From Tessaracoccus palaemonis (GTDB lineage: Bacteria; Actinomycetota; Actinomycetes; Propionibacteriales; Propionibacteriaceae), in the NCBI RefSeq assembly GCF_019316905.1, contig NZ_CP079216.1, positions 2,170,001 to 2,234,000 of the forward strand: a stretch of DNA of 64,000 bases, read 5' to 3'. Of the stretch, positions 20,484 to 33,694 are shown piece after piece. Made by a program: the position numbers and the translations under genes. How positions within the stretch are numbered: the stretch's first letter is position 1; the number at the start of each line of letters is the position of its first letter. Below the pieces are notes generated by a model. The model made no database searches and was not told the DNA's origin. It was given only the letters and a program-made list of their open reading frames with translations.

Positions 20484-21905
20484 ATGTTCCAAGGCGCAGA
20501 CGACCTCCTGGCCTACATCAAGGAAGAGGGCATCGAGACCATCGACGTCCGCTTCTGTGACCTGCCCGGCGTCATGCAGCACTTCACCGTGCCCGCAGGT
20601 TCCTTCGGCCCGGAGGTCTTCGAGGACGGCCTGAACTTCGACGGTTCGTCGATCACGGGCTTCCAGAAGATCCACGAGTCGGACATGTCCCTGTTCCCAG
20701 ACCCGACCACCGCCTACGTCGACCCCTTCCGGAAGTCGAAGACCCTCAACGTCAACTTCTTCGTGCACGACCCGCTGACGAAGGAGCCCTACTCGCGCGA
20801 TCCCCGCAACATCGCCAAGAAGGCCATGGCGTACCTCGCCTCCACCGGCATCGGTGACACCGCCTTCTTCGCCCCCGAGGCCGAGTTCTACGTCTTCGAC
20901 GACATCCGCTTCGACACCTCGTCGAACTCCTCCTACTACCACATCGACTCCGAGGCCGGCGCCTGGAACACCGGCCGCGTCGAGGACGGTGGCAACCGCG
21001 GTTACAAGGTCAAGTACAAGGGTGGCTACTTCCCCGTGGCCCCCGTCGACCACTTCGGCGACCTGCGCGACGACATCGTCCGCCACATGGAGGCCGCAGG
21101 CCTCGAGGTCGAGCGTGCGCACCACGAGGTCGGCACCGCCGGCCAGGCCGAGATCAACTGGCGCTTCGACGTGCTGCTCAAGGCCGCCGACGACGTCATG
21201 AAGTTCAAGTACCTCGTCAAGAACACCGCCTGGGCCGCCGGCAAGACCGCGACCTTCATGCCGAAGCCGATCTTCGGTGACAACGGCTCGGGCATGCACT
21301 GCCACCAGTCGATCTGGGACAGCGGCAAGCCGCTGTTCTACGACGAGAACGGCTACGCCGGGCTCTCCGACATGGCCCGCTACTACATCGGTGGCCTGCT
21401 GAAGCACGCCCCGTCGCTCCTGGCGTTCACCAACCCGTCGGTCAACTCGTACCACCGCCTGGTCCCCGGCTTCGAGGCCCCGGTCAACCTGGTCTACTCG
21501 CAGCGCAACCGCTCGGCCTGCATCCGCATCCCGATCACCGGGTCGAACCCGAAGGCCAAGCGCATCGAGTTCCGCTGCCCCGATCCCTCCAGCAACCCGT
21601 ACCTGGCCTTCGCGGCCATGCTGCTGGCCGGCATCGACGGCATCCAGAACCGCATCGAGCCCATGGCCCCGATCGACAAGGACCTCTACGAGCTGCCCGC
21701 CGAGGAGCACGCGCAGGTCCCGACCGTCCCCGGCAGCCTCGGCGCCGTCCTCGACTCCCTCGAGGCCGACCACGAGTTCCTGCTCGCCGGCGACGTGTTC
21801 ACGCCCGACCTCATCGAGACGTGGATCGAGCTGAAGCGCGCCGAGATCCAGGCCATCGCGATGCGCCCGCACCCGCACGAGTTCGAGCTCTACTACGCGA
21901 TCTGA
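20484..21905 (+). CDS. glnA: Glutamine synthetase type I (adenylylatable)
   Basis: Makes glutamine from glutamate, ammonia and ATP. The 473-residue length and motifs are those of dodecameric GSI-beta: FDGSSI, the latch DxSS region, [10 protein letters not shown] and [13 protein letters not shown], and C-terminal EFELYY. The adenylylation tyrosine is present in [11 protein letters not shown] (Y402), so GlnE (38765-41677) can regulate it. A strong GGAGG ribosome site and a GlnR-type box precede it, and a terminator hairpin follows. It corresponds to GlnA1 of other actinobacteria. Confidence 0.97.
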
Positions 21906-21922
21906 CAGACGCCGAAACTCCG

Positions 21923-21963
21923 AAGGGCCCCTGACCTGCATGTTTGCAGTGTCAGGGGCCCTT
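21923..21963 (+). terminator. Rho-independent terminator after glnA1
   Basis: AAGGGCCCCTGAC (21923-21935) pairs perfectly with GTCAGGGGCCCTT (21950s-21962), with a small inner stem TGCA/TGCA in the loop and a short T run after it. It starts 18 bp after the glnA1 stop. Confidence 0.85.
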
Positions 21964-22041
21964 TCGCGTCGCCCGATGAGCGGGCGGCAGAAGGCCGACC
22001 GAGTCCCAGCCTCCGGCCCAATCCCCAAGGCCCGGCTCTAC

Positions 22042-22047
22042 TAGAGT
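22042..22047 (+). promoter_or_regulatory. -10 box for leaderless transcript entering the SIR2 gene
   Basis: TAGAGT ends 7 nt before GTG 22055. If used, transcription would begin at the small ORF and run into the SIR2-DUF4020 gene. Confidence 0.45.
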
Positions 22048-22054
22048 TGCGCCC

Positions 22055-22174
22055 GTGATCACTGGTGATACTCCCACCGGACCCGACTTTGGTTTCCACG
22101 ACGCCGACGTAGCGGTCATCATCGACACCCTCGAGCACATCAACAAGGCGGCAATGCCGAGCGTCGTAGCCTGA
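22055..22174 (+). CDS. Hypothetical 39-residue ORF upstream of SIR2-DUF4020 gene
   Basis: A short frame (GTG 22055, TGA 22172-22174) encoding an acidic 39-residue peptide ending NKAAMPSVVA. It is placed behind a leaderless-type -10 and ends 3 bp before the SIR2 gene. I recognise no homologue. It could be a real small partner or leader peptide of the SIR2 protein, or the 5' stump of a host gene cut off where the island inserted. The evidence is promoter placement and coupling only. Confidence 0.35.
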   Translation: MITGDTPTGPDFGFHDADVAVIIDTLEHINKAAMPSVVA

Positions 22175-22177
22175 CCC

Positions 22178-25100
22178 ATGTGGATCGGTGACATCGATGT
22201 GCCGCAGGCCGTGCTCGACGCTGCAGAGGCTGGCGAGCTTGTCTTCTTCGTGGGAGCCGGCGCGTCACGCGCGCATCCGGCCGACCTGCCGGACTTCGTG
22301 CAACTGGTGCGCAGTATTGGCGCCCTCGTCGGGCGCGAGCCGACGGACGATGAGCTCCGCCACCCCGATGTGTTTCTTGGCCGACTTCACGACGACGGCA
22401 ACGACGTACATCTGCTGGTGGCTAATGCGATTGATCGGCCCGGGTCACAGCCGAATGCCCTTCACCATGCGATCACGGGGCTCGCCGTTTCCTATCCGAG
22501 CCCACGAATAGTCACCACCAACTACGACCGGCATCTCACCTCGTCGGCAATCCCGAGTTCCGTAGCACTGGACGTCTACGAGGCTCCTGCCCTTCCGCTA
22601 GGCGATGACTTCGAGGGAGTTGTTCACCTCCACGGGTCGTTGTCGCAGCCCAGCCGCAGACTCGTCGTTACGGACACTGACTTCGGACACGCCTACCTCA
22701 GGGAGGCATGGGTAGCCAGGTTCCTCGAGAGGATGTTCTCGAAGTACACGATCGTCTTCATCGGCTACAGCCACGGCGACGTCGTGATGCAGTACTTGGC
22801 TCGTTCCCTCGGACCGGATCAGAGCCGATACGTGCTCACCGACGATGCACAGAACGCAGAGTGGCGCCGTCTAGGTCTGACACCGATCACGTATCCGAAC
22901 GATTCCGGGGACCATTTAGCCCTGCCCGAGTCACTCGAGCGATGGCGGACCTTGGCGACGATGGGGCAAGTCGAGCATCGCGCACGACTTGCTGAGATCC
23001 TCTCCGCGGAACCGCCCACCATCCCGGAAGAAGTCTCGTATGTCGAGGCTGCACTCGCTCACCCGGAGCGGGTGAGGTACTTCGCCGAGAAGGCGAGGTT
23101 CGATGACGCAGACCGTAGCCGGCGGTGGTTCGCCTGGTTGGAGGCCCGCCCGGCCTTCCTCGCCCTGTTCTCGCAGGCCGCAGCCAGCGAACCGACGGCC
23201 CGCGCGCTCATGGGATGGATCGCCGACCAGTACATCCTCTCGGAGGGAGTCTCCGGGTCGGCACTGCGGGCGTTCCGCGATCGGCCTTGGCCGTCAGATA
23301 CGTGGTGCGCCATCGCGCAGGCGCTGTGCTTCTTGACCGGCACCTTCCCGAAGTGGCTCAATCCGTGGCTCTTGCTTGTCCTTCAGAACGCCCCGACCCA
23401 TCAGCATGACCTGCTCGACATGCTGCTTGTTGACAAGGACTGGTCCACCAACTTCGAGCTCGCCCTCATGGTCTTCGAGGATCGAACCCGCCCACTCCTG
23501 AGGCGAGCGTTCGACCTCGGCCGACCCGCGGACGAACCTCGGTTCGAGGTGACCCTTCGCGGCGATGAGCACTGGCTCACGGACAACTGGACGAAGGTAT
23601 TCGTACCAGTGCTCGACGAACACTTCGCAGAGGTCCTCAGCCTGACAACGCAGCAGATCTCGAGTGTCTATGGAAGCCTTCGTAGCGCGAATCCTGACAG
23701 AACCTTCGATCCTGTCTCCTTCTCGCGATCAGCCATCGAACGCCACGAGCAGGACAGCCATCGTGACCCCGTAGATGCCCTCATCGACGCGGCGCGTGAC
23801 TCGATAGAGGCTGCCCTCATCCAGTCCATTCCGCTCGGAGAGTCCTACCTGGCGGTCTGGGCATCCTCACCCAATGCGATCCTTCAACGCCTCGCCGTGC
23901 ACGGGTGGCGCGTGCGCACCGACATTGGGCCCGATGCGAAGCTGAGCTGGATGCTCAGCCAAGACCTTCTGTGGGACGTCCTGCCACAACACGAAGTGTT
24001 CCAGCTGATCCGAGACACACTCCCGGCCTCTGGCAGCGAAGTGGCCCAGAGGCTTGTCGACGACGCTATCGCTGGCCCTCCTGGCGACGCTGACGATGAG
24101 TACGCGCAGTACCGGAGCTACAACCTCCTTGGTTGGCTCGCAGACTCCGCGCCCGATCTTCAGATCGCAACGACTGCCTTTGCGGTAGCGCAGGCGGCGA
24201 ACCCCCAGTACGCCCGAAGGGAGCACCCCGATCTCAACAGCTTCGGATCATTCGGAGTCGTCGAGGATGCGTTTCCGTTCACCGAGGCGGAACTCCACGA
24301 TCTGATTGACCAAGATCCAGCTGCAGCCCTCGCTCACGTCAGAGGGTTCCAGACGGAGAGACACAACCATAGAGGGCCTTCCTGGACCGGCGCGCTTCGC
24401 GCCGTTCGAGCCTGTGTCACGGCGTACCCCGCTGATGGCACGGAACTCGCTCGAGTCTTGGAGGCTGAGGACAGCGACATCCGCGAGTCAATGATCTACG
24501 GCTGGGGCGCCGCGACTCTCGATGCGGAGCTGATCGAGAGTGTATTGGCGACCATCGCCAGCTGGGATCACCACGAGATTCGGCGGCCAGCATGCGCAAT
24601 GCTGTCGAACGGCGGCGACCCCGAACACCCGACACCGTGGCACCAGCTCGAACACGCTCAGCGCCTCGCCGCTGACCTTTGGCCATCGTCTGACGTCGAT
24701 GGCGCAGTCATCGGCGGAGCCGACATCCTCACTGAAGCACTCGATCACCCGGCAGGCGATCTTGCCGAGTTCTGGACGAAGGTCGTTCAGTGGGAGTGGT
24801 CTCAGGAGGGGACGTCCTGGGTGGGCCTCCCTGAGCGGCTTGCTGCACAGCTAGACGTCATGGTGTCGGCCGCCGATCGCAACGGTCTCCTCGCGCGAAC
24901 CCTCCTCGCTTCACGGTTGCACTTCTTCTTCGCGGCCGACCGTGAGTGGTGTGAGGAACGACTACTCCCCCTGTTTGGTTGGGAGGATGAAGCCGAGGCC
25001 TCGGCCGCCTGGCAGGGCTTCCTCGCATGGGGGCGGTGGAACGACGGTCTGCTCCAGTCCGGATTGCTCGACGCCTATGTGGCGACCTCGGCGCACGTCG

Positions 25101-25687
25101 AGGAGTTGCCCAATGCCCTCCGCCGTCAGCTCGCCACGCATCTGACTTCAATCGCGATGTTCGCCCCTGTTGACCAAGCGACCTGGTTGACGCGCTTCGT
25201 TCGCTCAGCGTCAGAGGATCTCAGAGTCTCTTGGGCCCGAGAGGTCGGGCGTGCCTTGGCGGAGCTCGACCCCAGGGACGCACCCGGCCAGTGGGACCGA
25301 TGGATCTATGCGTACTGGTCCGGCCGCAATCAGTCTGTGCCGCTGCCCTTCACAGCCGCCGAGGCATCTTCGACGGCCGATTGGGTCGTCGGGCTTCCCG
25401 GCGTGCGGAGCCAGGCGATCGATCTTGTGCTGCGTTCCGCGGCAGGGCTCGACCAACGCGGCAGGCACCTCGACCTCCTCACGGACATCGATGTGACAGC
25501 TGAGGCAAGCGAATGGGCTCGACTGCTGACACACCTCCTCAAGAACACGAGCAGCCCGCCGTGGGGTATCGGCTATCGGCTCCACGAGATTGTGTCTCGA
25601 CTTCGCGAAGGCGATCCTCAACCCGATCTCAAAGAGCTGGTCAACGAGGCGATGCGGCTTGGCGCAACCGATGCCGCCGACTGGTAG
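22178..25687 (+). CDS. SIR2-DUF4020 protein, DSR1-type defence-associated sirtuin
   Basis: A 1169-residue protein with an N-terminal SIR2-like domain (about 1-270) and a long helical C-terminal region resembling DUF4020. SIR2 motifs are GAGAS (26-30), TTNYD (113-117), HLHG (150-153) and FIGYS (194-198); N115 and H152 are the likely catalytic pair. SIR2-DUF4020 proteins were named DSR1 among anti-phage systems; such sirtuins deplete NAD+ on phage sensing and abort infection. The gene has visibly more A/T at third codon positions than its neighbours, suggesting transfer. It has no Shine-Dalgarno and begins 3 bp after the 39-residue ORF. The DUF4020 call is from memory of the architecture. Confidence 0.8.
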   Translation: MWIGDIDVPQAVLDAAEAGELVFFVGAGASRAHPADLPDFVQLVRSIGALVGREPTDDELRHPDVFLGRLHDDGNDVHLLVANAIDRPGSQPNALHHAITGLAVSYPSPRIVTTNYDRHLTSSAIPSSVALDVYEAPALPLGDDFEGVVHLHGSLSQPSRRLVVTDTDFGHAYLREAWVARFLERMFSKYTIVFIGYSHGDVVMQYLARSLGPDQSRYVLTDDAQNAEWRRLGLTPITYPNDSGDHLALPESLERWRTLATMGQVEHRARLAEILSAEPPTIPEEVSYVEAALAHPERVRYFAEKARFDDADRSRRWFAWLEARPAFLALFSQAAASEPTARALMGWIADQYILSEGVSGSALRAFRDRPWPSDTWCAIAQALCFLTGTFPKWLNPWLLLVLQNAPTHQHDLLDMLLVDKDWSTNFELALMVFEDRTRPLLRRAFDLGRPADEPRFEVTLRGDEHWLTDNWTKVFVPVLDEHFAEVLSLTTQQISSVYGSLRSANPDRTFDPVSFSRSAIERHEQDSHRDPVDALIDAARDSIEAALIQSIPLGESYLAVWASSPNAILQRLAVHGWRVRTDIGPDAKLSWMLSQDLLWDVLPQHEVFQLIRDTLPASGSEVAQRLVDDAIAGPPGDADDEYAQYRSYNLLGWLADSAPDLQIATTAFAVAQAANPQYARREHPDLNSFGSFGVVEDAFPFTEAELHDLIDQDPAAALAHVRGFQTERHNHRGPSWTGALRAVRACVTAYPADGTELARVLEAEDSDIRESMIYGWGAATLDAELIESVLATIASWDHHEIRRPACAMLSNGGDPEHPTPWHQLEHAQRLAADLWPSSDVDGAVIGGADILTEALDHPAGDLAEFWTKVVQWEWSQEGTSWVGLPERLAAQLDVMVSAADRNGLLARTLLASRLHFFFAADREWCEERLLPLFGWEDEAEASAAWQGFLAWGRWNDGLLQSGLLDAYVATSAHVEELPNALRRQLATHLTSIAMFAPVDQATWLTRFVRSASEDLRVSWAREVGRALAELDPRDAPGQWDRWIYAYWSGRNQSVPLPFTAAEASSTADWVVGLPGVRSQAIDLVLRSAAGLDQRGRHLDLLTDIDVTAEASEWARLLTHLLKNTSSPPWGIGYRLHEIVSRLREGDPQPDLKELVNEAMRLGATDAADW

Positions 25688-25752
25688 TCCGCCCCTCCCC
25701 CGACACCCCCTTTCCTCCACCGCTCGCCCCGTAGCCACCCGCGTCCCAGGCG

Positions 25753-26997
25753 CTACCCCCGACGTCCGACGCGCTCCGCGAAGGCGTCCAACGCCTCGAT
25801 GACATCCGGCGCGATCCAGACTCGGTTGCGCCGGTTCTCGTTCGTGCGTGTGACGATCCCGGCCGCCTCCAGCTGCTCGATCGCCCGCTGCGCGGCCGAG
25901 AGCGCGACGCCGGTGACCGCCTCCACATGGGCCACAGTGACCGCGGGCTGACTCAGCAGATGCGGCAGCAGGCGTCTCGCAGCCGATCCCCTACGCGACG
26001 TGAGCTGCTCGCTCCACGCGCCGTAGACCCTTTCGAGATCGTCGACGAGCTCCCGCCCATTGCTGATCGCGCGGAAGGAGGCGTTGACGAACTGCCGGAT
26101 GATCGTCTCGATGTATCCCTCGCGGTAGTCGGTCAGCGCCCGGAAGTAGCCGGTGGTGTCGGTCAGCAGGCCCGCTGAAACGGGAACCGTGAGCGTGCGT
26201 GTGACGCCTGAGTGGCGCAGCATCGCGTGGACAAGGGTGCGCCCTGTGCGACCGTTGCCGTCGTTGAACGGATGGATCGTCTCGAACTGTGCATGAGCCA
26301 GCGCGACCTGCACCAGCACGGGCAGATCGACGCGCTGAACGAACACCATGAGGTCGTCGAGAGCCGCTGCGACCCGTGACGGGTGGGGCGGGACGAACGA
26401 AGCCGTGTGCGGACTCAGCGCGTTGCTGCCGATCCACACCTGCAGATCCCGCAGCTGGCCCGGCGCGGCGTAAGCCTGACTGCCGTGAAGAGCACGGTGC
26501 GCTGCAAGGATGGCCTCGACGCTGATGTCGTCAGCCAGCTCAACGGCTCGCTGCATGGCGGCGACGTTCGCGGTCACCAGCTGTGCGTTCGGCCCTGCCT
26601 TGGCGTCGATTGCTGCCAGAGCCAGGGCCCGAGCGCCAGCGGTGACGCCTTCGATCTCCGATGACGACGCCGACTCGGTGCGCAGGAGGACGGAGGCCAG
26701 CGGCGCGAGCTCCGACGTGTTGTCGTCGCCGTCCGTCGCGGCTCTCCGTTCTGCGAAGGCCGTGATCTCGGCGTCGAAGCGGGTGATCTCCTGGACGGCG
26801 TCCTCCGCCTCGGCCAGCAGGCCATTGGGGACCACGACCCCGGCGCCGGCAATAGCGGCCGGCACGGCCGCTTCATACGGTCCCCGAGCCGCGAGTTGTT
26901 GGCGACGCGAGGCGCCATGATCCGACTCGCGATGCCATGGATGGGCTTCCCAGCCGACCACGAACGCAGAGTGCAGATCACCTCGCTCCCGGTCCAT
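25753..26997 (-). CDS. Fic-family AMP-transferase with winged-helix tail
   Basis: A 414-residue Fic protein, which would transfer AMP from ATP to a protein hydroxyl. The catalytic loop HPFNDGNGRTGR is intact (H242). Upstream lies a class II-type inhibitory motif SSEIEG (112-117), whose Glu would block ATP until displaced. The C-terminal 70 residues look like a winged helix, suggesting DNA binding. ATG 26997 is preferred to the longer frame because an inverted repeat sits just upstream. It is convergent with the SIR2-DUF4020 gene. The target is unknown, and it could be a stand-alone toxin-like or regulatory Fic. Confidence 0.9.
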   Translation of the reverse strand: MDRERGDLHSAFVVGWEAHPWHRESDHGASRRQQLAARGPYEAAVPAAIAGAGVVVPNGLLAEAEDAVQEITRFDAEITAFAERRAATDGDDNTSELAPLASVLLRTESASSSEIEGVTAGARALALAAIDAKAGPNAQLVTANVAAMQRAVELADDISVEAILAAHRALHGSQAYAAPGQLRDLQVWIGSNALSPHTASFVPPHPSRVAAALDDLMVFVQRVDLPVLVQVALAHAQFETIHPFNDGNGRTGRTLVHAMLRHSGVTRTLTVPVSAGLLTDTTGYFRALTDYREGYIETIIRQFVNASFRAISNGRELVDDLERVYGAWSEQLTSRRGSAARRLLPHLLSQPAVTVAHVEAVTGVALSAAQRAIEQLEAAGIVTRTNENRRNRVWIAPDVIEALDAFAERVGRRG

Positions 26998-27010
26998 ATT
27001 CCCACAGTAC

Positions 27011-27034
27011 ACCACTTTATAACTCTAAAGTGGT
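27011..27034. promoter_or_regulatory. Perfect inverted repeat before fic gene (candidate operator)
   Basis: ACCACTTTA (27011-27019) and TAAAGTGGT (27026-27034) are perfect 9-bp arms with a 6-bp spacer. The repeat lies 14 bp upstream of the Fic start, where a promoter is expected. The Fic protein's own winged helix is a natural candidate for binding it. Confidence 0.6.
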
Positions 27035-31543: not shown

Positions 31544-33694
31544 GTGAACACCACCACCCGACGCCTGCGCATCGCGATCCCCGCCATCCTCGTGCTCCTC
31601 TGGTTCGTGGCCGCTGGCATCGGCGGACCGTACTTCGGCAAGGTCGACGAGGTCGCACAGAACGACCAGAGCACGTTCCTGCCGTCGTCGGCCGAGTCGA
31701 CGGTCGTCGGCGAGCGGTACCTGGACTTCGTCGGCTCGGAGTCGATCCCGGCCATCGTGATCGTCACCGGCGAGGAGAAGCTCACCGAAGAGCAGCTGGC
31801 CTCCCTCAACACGCTCGCCGAGGACCTGGGCGACGAGCCCAACGTGGTGTCGTCCTCCCCCGCCGTCGCGTCGGAGGACGGGCTCGCCGCCGAGCTGTTC
31901 GTCGGCCTCGACACCGACGCGGACATCTCCGAGGCAGTCGACGAACTCCGGGCCACCATCACCGACGAGCTCCCCGACGGCCTCACCTTCAACATCACCG
32001 GACCCGCCGGGTTCACCGCCGACCTCGTCACGGCCTTCGGCGGCATCGACGGCATCCTGCTGATCACGGCGCTGGGCCTGGTGCTGGTGATCCTGCTCGT
32101 CGTCTACCGCTCGATCGTGCTGCCGTTCGCAGTGCTCGCCACCAGCATGTTCGCGCTGTGCGTCGCGCTGCTCGTGAACTGGTGGCTGGCCAAGTGGGAC
32201 ATCCTGACGCTGACCGGCCAGACGCAGGGCATCCTGTTCATCCTCGTGATCGGCGCCGCCACCGACTACTCGCTGCTCTACACGGCCCGCTACGCGGAGG
32301 CACTGCGCCGCCACCGGCACCGCGGCGACGCCACGCGCTCCGCGCTGAAGGGCGTCCTCGAGCCGATCCTCGCCTCGGGCGGCACCGTCATCGCGGGCCT
32401 GCTCTGCCTGCTGCTGAGCGACCTCGGGTCCAACCGGTCGCTCGGCCCCGTCGCCGCCATCGGCATCGTGTTCGCCATGCTGTCCGCTCTGACGCTGCTG
32501 CCCAGCATCCTGTACCTGCTCGGCCGCTCGGCCTACTGGCCCCGGCGTCCGAAGTACGACCCCGACCGCAGCGACGACCAGCAGGTCCACACCGGCATCT
32601 ACGCCAAGGCGGGCGAGTTCGTCTCCCGCCGACCGCGCACGGTGTGGATCGTCTGCGCCCTGCTGCTGGCCGCCGGCGCCGCGTTCGTTCCGACGCTGAA
32701 GGCCGACGGTGTGCCGACCAGCGAGTACGTGCTCGGCTTCTCCGATGCCCGCGAGGGCCAGGACCGCCTGAGCGAGCACTTCCCCGGCGGCTCCGGCGCC
32801 CCGGCCTATGTCCTGACCGACGAGGGCAACCTGCAGGACGTCACCGACAAGCTGCTGGCCGCCGACGGCGTCGACTCCGTCGCCGTCGTGGCGAAGGACT
32901 CCCCCTCCGGGCAGGCCGAGGTGACCTCCGACGGGGTCCAGTCGCTGATCCCGGGCCAGCCCGCGCCCGCGCCGACCGTCTCCGAGGGTCAGGTGATGCT
33001 GCTCGCGACCCTGGCCGACGCGCCCGACTCCGACGAGGCCGTCGAGACCATCCGCGAGCTCCGCACGGAGCTGGCCGGCACGGCCCAGCTCGGCGGCGAC
33101 ACCGCCACGGACGTCGACACCCGCGACACCAACGAGCACGACCGGGCGCTGATCATCCCGATCGTGCTGGCCGTGATCCTGGTGATCCTGATCGCGCTGC
33201 TGCGCAGCGTCGTCGCCCCGCTGCTACTCATCGCGACCACGGCCCTGAGCTTCGGCACCGCGATGGGCACCGCGGCCCTGGTGTTCAACCACGTGTTCAA
33301 GTTCCCGGGCGCCGACCCGTCCGTACCGCTGTACGGGTTCGTGTTCCTCGTCGCGCTCGGCATCGACTACAACATCTTCCTGATGACCCGCGTGCGCGAG
33401 GAGTCCCGGCGCCACGGCACCCGCGAGGGCATCCTGCGCGGGCTCGCCGTCACGGGCGGCGTCATCACGTCGGCCGGCCTCGTGCTCGCCGCGACCTTCG
33501 CCGCGCTGGCCGTCATCCCGATCCTCTTCCTGGCGCAGCTCGCGTTCATCGTCGCGTTCGGCGTGCTGCTCGACACGTTCGTCGTGCGGACGCTGCTGGT
33601 GCCGGCGCTGGTCTACGACATCGGGCCGGCCGTGTGGTGGCCGTCGAAGCTGGCCCGCGACGAGGCCGCTGCTAAGGGGCGACACGCCGCCTGA
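31544..33694 (+). CDS. MMPL-family transporter (RND superfamily)
   Basis: A 716-residue membrane protein with the MMPL plan: TM1, a large outer loop, five helices, then the same again. Paired intramembrane signatures are ATDYSLLYTARYAEAL in the first half and GIDYNIFLMTRVREE in the second, whose Asp-Tyr pairs carry protons. Actinobacterial relatives export lipids or drugs; the substrate is unknown here. The start GTG 31544 has TTCAAT 6 nt upstream, a weak leaderless -10. No TetR regulator is adjacent, unlike many MMPL genes. Confidence 0.92.
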   Translation: MNTTTRRLRIAIPAILVLLWFVAAGIGGPYFGKVDEVAQNDQSTFLPSSAESTVVGERYLDFVGSESIPAIVIVTGEEKLTEEQLASLNTLAEDLGDEPNVVSSSPAVASEDGLAAELFVGLDTDADISEAVDELRATITDELPDGLTFNITGPAGFTADLVTAFGGIDGILLITALGLVLVILLVVYRSIVLPFAVLATSMFALCVALLVNWWLAKWDILTLTGQTQGILFILVIGAATDYSLLYTARYAEALRRHRHRGDATRSALKGVLEPILASGGTVIAGLLCLLLSDLGSNRSLGPVAAIGIVFAMLSALTLLPSILYLLGRSAYWPRRPKYDPDRSDDQQVHTGIYAKAGEFVSRRPRTVWIVCALLLAAGAAFVPTLKADGVPTSEYVLGFSDAREGQDRLSEHFPGGSGAPAYVLTDEGNLQDVTDKLLAADGVDSVAVVAKDSPSGQAEVTSDGVQSLIPGQPAPAPTVSEGQVMLLATLADAPDSDEAVETIRELRTELAGTAQLGGDTATDVDTRDTNEHDRALIIPIVLAVILVILIALLRSVVAPLLLIATTALSFGTAMGTAALVFNHVFKFPGADPSVPLYGFVFLVALGIDYNIFLMTRVREESRRHGTREGILRGLAVTGGVITSAGLVLAATFAALAVIPILFLAQLAFIVAFGVLLDTFVVRTLLVPALVYDIGPAVWWPSKLARDEAAAKGRHAA

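Follow-up and report, generated by a model that had tools for sequence, protein, structure and literature searches.

Upstream of a large dsr1-like gene in Tessaracoccus palaemonis lies an open reading frame of only 39 codons, and the locus raises the question of whether this small frame is a second component of a defence system or something else. The window examined is a continuous stretch of 64,000 nucleotides (contig NZ_CP079216.1, positions 2,170,001 to 2,234,000), and window coordinates are counted from its first nucleotide. A preliminary description had proposed that the frame encodes a new regulator or sensor, or else is the stump of a host gene. Neither proposal is retained. The frame is almost certainly an hsdM'::'hsdR fusion, derived from a type I operon with dsr1 as its last gene, and neither an independent gene nor part of a gene at the insertion site; we reject the proposed unrecognised component, and the finding is a deletion scar before a Dsr1-like gene. 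The best explanation of the locus overall, with a probability of roughly 0.85, is a collapsed hsdM-hsdS-X-hsdR-dsr1 operon whose dsr1 would be expressed via the scar. The features concerned are as follows.

21978 to 22054, forward strand: remnant of the hsdM upstream region, matched by blastn to Phycicoccus elongatus at 21978-22011 (79%) and 22018-22068 (88%).
22042 to 22047, forward strand: -10 element TAGAGT of the putative hsdM leaderless promoter, 7 nt before the GTG and at the same place in relatives.
22055 to 22174, forward strand: chimeric ORF hsdM'::'hsdR (deletion scar) of 39 codons, the 5' part being an hsdM start and the 3' part an hsdR end.
22055 to 22068, forward strand: first ~5 codons of hsdM.
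22069 to 22174, forward strand: last ~34-35 codons of hsdR and the stop, from a tblastn match to P. elongatus HsdR.
22178 to 25687, forward strand: dsr1-like gene, intact, 1169 amino acids, with its ATG at 22178 and its stop at 25687.

The small frame runs from GTG at 22055 to TGA at 22172-22174 and its product is VITGDTPTGPDFGFHDADVAVIIDTLEHINKAAMPSVVA; a CCC separates the TGA from the ATG of dsr1, in agreement with the 3-bp gap originally reported. Its beginning is that of hsdM. HsdM of P. elongatus begins VITGELKSKID, and the first nucleotides of the window frame, GTGATCACTGGTGA, are exactly those of the P. elongatus hsdM start, while a second relative, genome G401, has GTGATCACGGGTGA. Around this start the window reads TACTAGAGTTGCGCCCGTGATCACTGGTGA, P. 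elongatus TACTAGAGTTACGCCTGTGATCACTGGTGAGCTGAAG and G401 TAAAGT-N7-GTGATCACGGGTGAG. Homology to the region upstream of hsdM reaches back to about 21978, with a local alignment score of 36 (500 shuffles gave at most 20.5). The end of the frame is that of hsdR: residues 1080-1116 of P. elongatus HsdR match window positions 22061-22171 in tblastn (59% identity, E 1.7e-6), and a whole-genome search with HsdR recovered the same site (58%, E 3.8e-6) and found no other HsdR of the same kind and no intact operon in the host genome. The exact breakpoint is ambiguous by a few bases, and the HsdR part comprises only about 35 codons. The scar diverges about five times faster than HsdR tails (dN 0.22-0.24 versus 0.04-0.05), a rough figure drawn from 37 codons only. 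An hsdR stump alone was also considered as the identity of the frame and was dropped upon recognition of the hsdM start at its 5' end.

A frame that is open, follows a good leaderless promoter and abuts dsr1 has the appearance expected of a genuine small regulator or sensor coupled to Dsr1, but this reading is very unlikely, as both ends of the ORF come from other genes, the 39-residue peptide diverges fast and has no match in Pfam, NCBIfam or PADLOC, and no comparable ORF precedes dsr1 in the four solo relatives read outside the hsd-linked loci (L018, L113, L114 and L115). At the RNA level, an Rfam search of 21850-26000 gave no match, and the predicted fold of 22055-22240 is not more stable than its shuffles (z 0.79). 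We infer that the scar peptide has no function of its own. Chimeric junctions can also arise by misassembly; an artefact is nevertheless extremely improbable here, given that the genome is a single contig, 100% complete and 0.1% contaminated, that both halves of the frame show the divergence from their relatives expected of resident DNA, and that the host genome holds no intact operon as a source.

The complete arrangement, hsdM-hsdS-X-hsdR followed by dsr1, is found in two loci only, those of P. elongatus (L016/L144) and G401 (L112). Their products are an HsdM of 519 or 520 amino acids (N6_Mtase), an HsdS of 383 or 376, the X protein of 359, and an HsdR of 1116 with ResIII and EcoEI_R_C domains, encoded directly upstream of dsr1. 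Gene X (L016 558-1637; L112 4844-5923) lies between hsdS and hsdR; its product, a possible extra nuclease of the type I operon, is 89% conserved and matches NucS_C weakly, below the cut-off. HsdR ends ...APTGPDYFFPDADVEVIVDTLQQIKRTAVPSDVA, with its stop 3 nt before dsr1, and the TGA-N3-ATG junction occurs in 4/4 hsdR-linked loci. A further hsdR-linked locus is that of Janibacter anophelis (L145 16869-17867), where a 332-codon 3' piece of hsdR, corresponding to residues 783-1116 and 88% identical, precedes dsr1 and adjoins an unrelated divergent gene; this truncation is an independent decay, separate from that of the window. A description of a SIR2 or Dsr1 gene within an hsd operon was not found in the open literature, judged mostly by titles and abstracts.

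In the dsr1 tree, the window gene is sister to that of P. elongatus (100/99), followed by Janibacter (97/98) and then by G401 (95/99), with Mycobacterium hubeiense outside; the hsd-linked clade that holds the window gene includes L017 and G401 (95/99). A complete operon is present on the deepest of the four branches, and by parsimony the window has lost it, so that the absence of hsd genes is the derived state. Comparison with the complete operons shows the extent of the loss. An internal deletion took out about 6.9 kb (6,927 and 6,906 nt relative to the two operons), and with it almost the whole type I restriction-modification set. The leaderless promoter of hsdM and its first ~5 codons now run in frame into the final ~35 codons of hsdR, behind which the TGA-N3-ATG junction of the ancestral operon and an intact dsr1-like gene are retained. 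Since hsdM and hsdR lie in different frames in the relatives, the in-frame fusion is either a one-in-three outcome or selected. The EcoEI_R_C-family type I operon is accordingly the source of the window promoter and of both ORF halves, but unlike a type I system the window has no functional parts of one: about 40 codons remain, comprising only the hsdM start and the hsdR end.

The leaderless-type -10 element that the preliminary description had placed before the 39-codon frame is borne out by comparison. TAGAGT-N7-GTG occurs at hsdM of P. elongatus and TAAAGT-N7-GTG at hsdM of G401, and the spacing is enriched at gene starts: in about 20 actinobacterial loci, 1.5% of starts but 0.14% of internal codons have TANNNT-N7-RTG (~11-fold), and for TANNNT-N6-RTG the figures are 5.4% and 0.11%. 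In M. tuberculosis, leaderless transcripts account for 26% of the genes that have a primary start, with TANNNT as the -10 element (PMC3898074). A sigma-70 scan reported no site; its single terminator-like match lies inside dsr1, and the glnA hairpin upstream (see below) is not among its results. From this promoter, RNA polymerase would start at GTG 22055, and ribosomes loading on the leaderless GTG would read the 39-codon scar and stop 3 nt before the ATG of dsr1. Because no clear Shine-Dalgarno sequence is seen by eye at this ATG, it would be reached mostly by termination-reinitiation; short intergenic gaps favour translational coupling (PMC12548453). Expression of dsr1 from the old hsdM promoter by scar-coupled translation is, on these grounds, rather probable.

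A real but less likely alternative is that dsr1 has gained a leaderless promoter of its own within the scar and is transcribed from it, the 39-codon ORF being irrelevant to expression. A second TANNNT hexamer, TAGCCT at 22167-22172, precedes the ATG by 5 nt; the corresponding bases of the hsd-linked relatives are TGGCCT, so that the motif is due to the A in the window. TANNNT-N5-RTG is itself enriched (0.85% of starts versus 0.11% of internal codons), and among the solo relatives L113 and L114 carry TANNNT-N6-ATG directly at dsr1, with weaker NANNNT hexamers at N6 in L018 and L115. However, N5 is a minor spacing, with only 5 cases as against 32 for N6, the change is synonymous in the scar frame (GTG to GTA) and may be due to chance, and the hsdM promoter upstream is intact, in an arrangement conserved in two relatives. 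Scar-coupled translation from the hsdM promoter is preferred for these reasons.

The protein encoded by the large gene carries two recognisable domains.

22505 to 22825, forward strand: SIR2_2 domain (Pfam), residues 110-216, E 6.9e-17, 62.3 bits with a cut-off of 24.5.
25163 to 25450, forward strand: DUF4020 match (Pfam PF13212), residues 996-1091, E 2.3e-8, 34.4 bits with a cut-off of 22.7.

Both profiles are thus above their Pfam cut-offs, and the SIR2 motifs described earlier are all present: GAGAS at 26-30, TTNYD at 113-117, HLHG at 150-153 and FIGYS at 194-198. N115 and H152 are invariant across 11 homologues and belong to the TTNYD and HG motifs shared with DSR2. The long DUF4020-like helical tail is likewise recovered, the AlphaFold model giving helical repeats whose arrangement is unreliable at a pTM of 0.46. 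Close homologues are encoded in genome contigs of P. elongatus (80%), J. anophelis (78%) and M. hubeiense (70%), with a fourth in G401, and those of Janibacter and Mycobacterium have the same length without gaps. No homologue was found in the phages and viral contigs searched, and the plasmids searched contain distant homologues only, one of them full-length at 33%. Distant homologues in six further contigs (G188 C75, G027 C1, G570 C32, G1324 C202, G1511 C1 and G1522 C29) give split matches, some with stops or separate frames, and decayed members may be common in this family.

Assignment to DSR1, as first suggested, holds for the architecture and not for the equivalog. The protein shares with Dsr1 an N-terminal SIR2 domain, a DUF4020 near the C-terminus and the same overall plan; PADLOC matches it to Dsr1 with 201 bits, and a profile of the 11 homologues aligns end to end with an annotated Dsr1 in hhalign (probability 100%, E 1.3e-53, 1084 columns), while residues 7-256 show 36% identity to an annotated Dsr1. 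The NCBIfam model NF041818, in contrast, gives 255.3 bits, far below its equivalog cut-off of 1400 bits, and the protein is about 100 residues shorter than the 1263 of the model. In addition, hsd genes are absent beside the five plasmid relatives inspected, of which four carry the annotation Dsr1, whereas the window gene descends from the last gene of a type I operon. We therefore describe the protein as a full-length but distant Dsr1-like relative, not as a Dsr1 equivalog.

The modelled SIR2 domain superposes on those of DSR2 (PDB 8wy8 and others) and ThsA with Z ~19.5 and rmsd 3.3-3.5 Å over ~245 residues. Because it models well on these proteins and N115 and H152 are intact, the best guess, and a likely one, is that the product is a SIR2-NADase defence effector. 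By homology, the N-terminal SIR2 NADase would stay inactive until a phage component is sensed by the helical-repeat C-terminus, upon which NAD+ depletion or phage inhibition would follow. According to a review, DSR2 kills upon sensing tail tube protein, whereas phage inhibition by DSR1 involves no cell death (PMC10952713). Resemblance to DSR2 includes the SIR2 fold (Z ~19, rmsd ~3.4 Å over ~247 residues), the catalytic N and H motifs and a long helical array after the SIR2 part; the helical part, on the other hand, has no confident match to that of DSR2, alignments past the SIR2 part having an rmsd of at least 8 Å, and tail-tube recognition as in DSR2 cannot be assumed for the window protein.

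The position of dsr1 at the end of an hsd operon, behind a 3-nt gap, would also suit a guardian of the restriction enzyme that fires upon inhibition of HsdMSR, like PrrC in EcoprrI, and guardians encoded inside type I loci or close to them are known (PrrC, PARIS; PMC12707154). A strict guardian should nevertheless penalise the loss of its enzyme, whereas dsr1 is intact without hsd in the window, is also hsd-free in the four solo relatives and is frameshifted in both complete operons, so that this role is improbable. The likeness to PrrC-type accessory genes consists in a defence effector within an hsd operon (L016, L112); the dsr1 product is unrelated to PrrC, its gene is last in the operon instead of embedded, and it persists without restriction genes. 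As for the frameshifts in the complete operons (L016 5001-8502; L112 9287-12788), P. elongatus lacks 8 nt near codon 21 and G401 about 5 nt near codon 127, and neither is a homopolymer error by eye; dsr1 is intact in both hsd-truncated loci, those of the window and Janibacter (n=4 loci). It is doubtful, yet conceivable from these comparisons, that dsr1 regularly closes the operons of one type I lineage, that the two parts are in conflict, and that the in-frame collapse in the window was selected as leaderless translation of the scar is needed for Dsr1. Each of the four loci shows decay of either hsd or dsr1, a pattern that merits a wider look across genomes, although four loci prove nothing. 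The finding is a modest one, and the hsdMSXR-dsr1 operon with its repeated decay is the more interesting part: an operon uniting type I restriction with a predicted Dsr1-like NADase offers a place to test conflict or guardian behaviour. The collapse of a larger defence operon can leave a solitary defence gene, with promoter and stop-start junction kept and four genes lost, and it is a warning, of relevance to catalogues of small proteins, that small ORFs adjoining defence genes can be deletion scars.

The locus occupies a variable region between glnA and an MMPL-family transporter gene, with the following borders and neighbour.

20484 to 21905, forward strand: glnA, left host gene of the variable region, an ORF of 473 amino acids.
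21906 to 21967, forward strand: glnA terminator region with a hairpin at ~21925-21962, 86% to the sequence downstream of glnA in congener G010 and 82% to that in P. elongatus.
25753 to 27015, reverse strand: Fic protein (SoFic-like; Pfam/PADLOC), next hotspot gene, found directly after glnA in G010.
31544 to 33694, forward strand: putative MMPL-family transporter, right hotspot border, named from its sequence.

Homology with the closest relative, G017, is 99% over 1363 bp and ends at the glnA stop (21905), while that with G010 continues past the terminator to ~21967; the insert of the window lies between ~21968 and ~25750. The MMPL gene follows the glnA stop by 36-214 bp in 13/29 congener loci, which are near-empty sites. 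Besides the SoFic-like gene, the hotspot contains within 25753-31143 genes for a DUF222-HNH protein and for a helicase IV/UvrD-like protein. In P. elongatus, the hsd-dsr1 operon is located about 2.9 kb downstream of glnA, after a tyrosine-integrase gene and before a TrwC relaxase gene, and on account of these neighbours it probably travelled on an integrative element; an att-like repeat of the glnA 3' end was not found within the 24 kb searched. At the same glnA-mmpL site, G017 carries 28 kb that include a BREX set of PglW, PglX, PglZ, BrxD and BrxHI (C1:917290-935030; L092, L093). In this genome the final 25 bp of glnA also recur at C1:940307-940331, about 5.2 kb away from the gene and again followed by similar sequence; this repeat looks like the attachment site of an integrative element.
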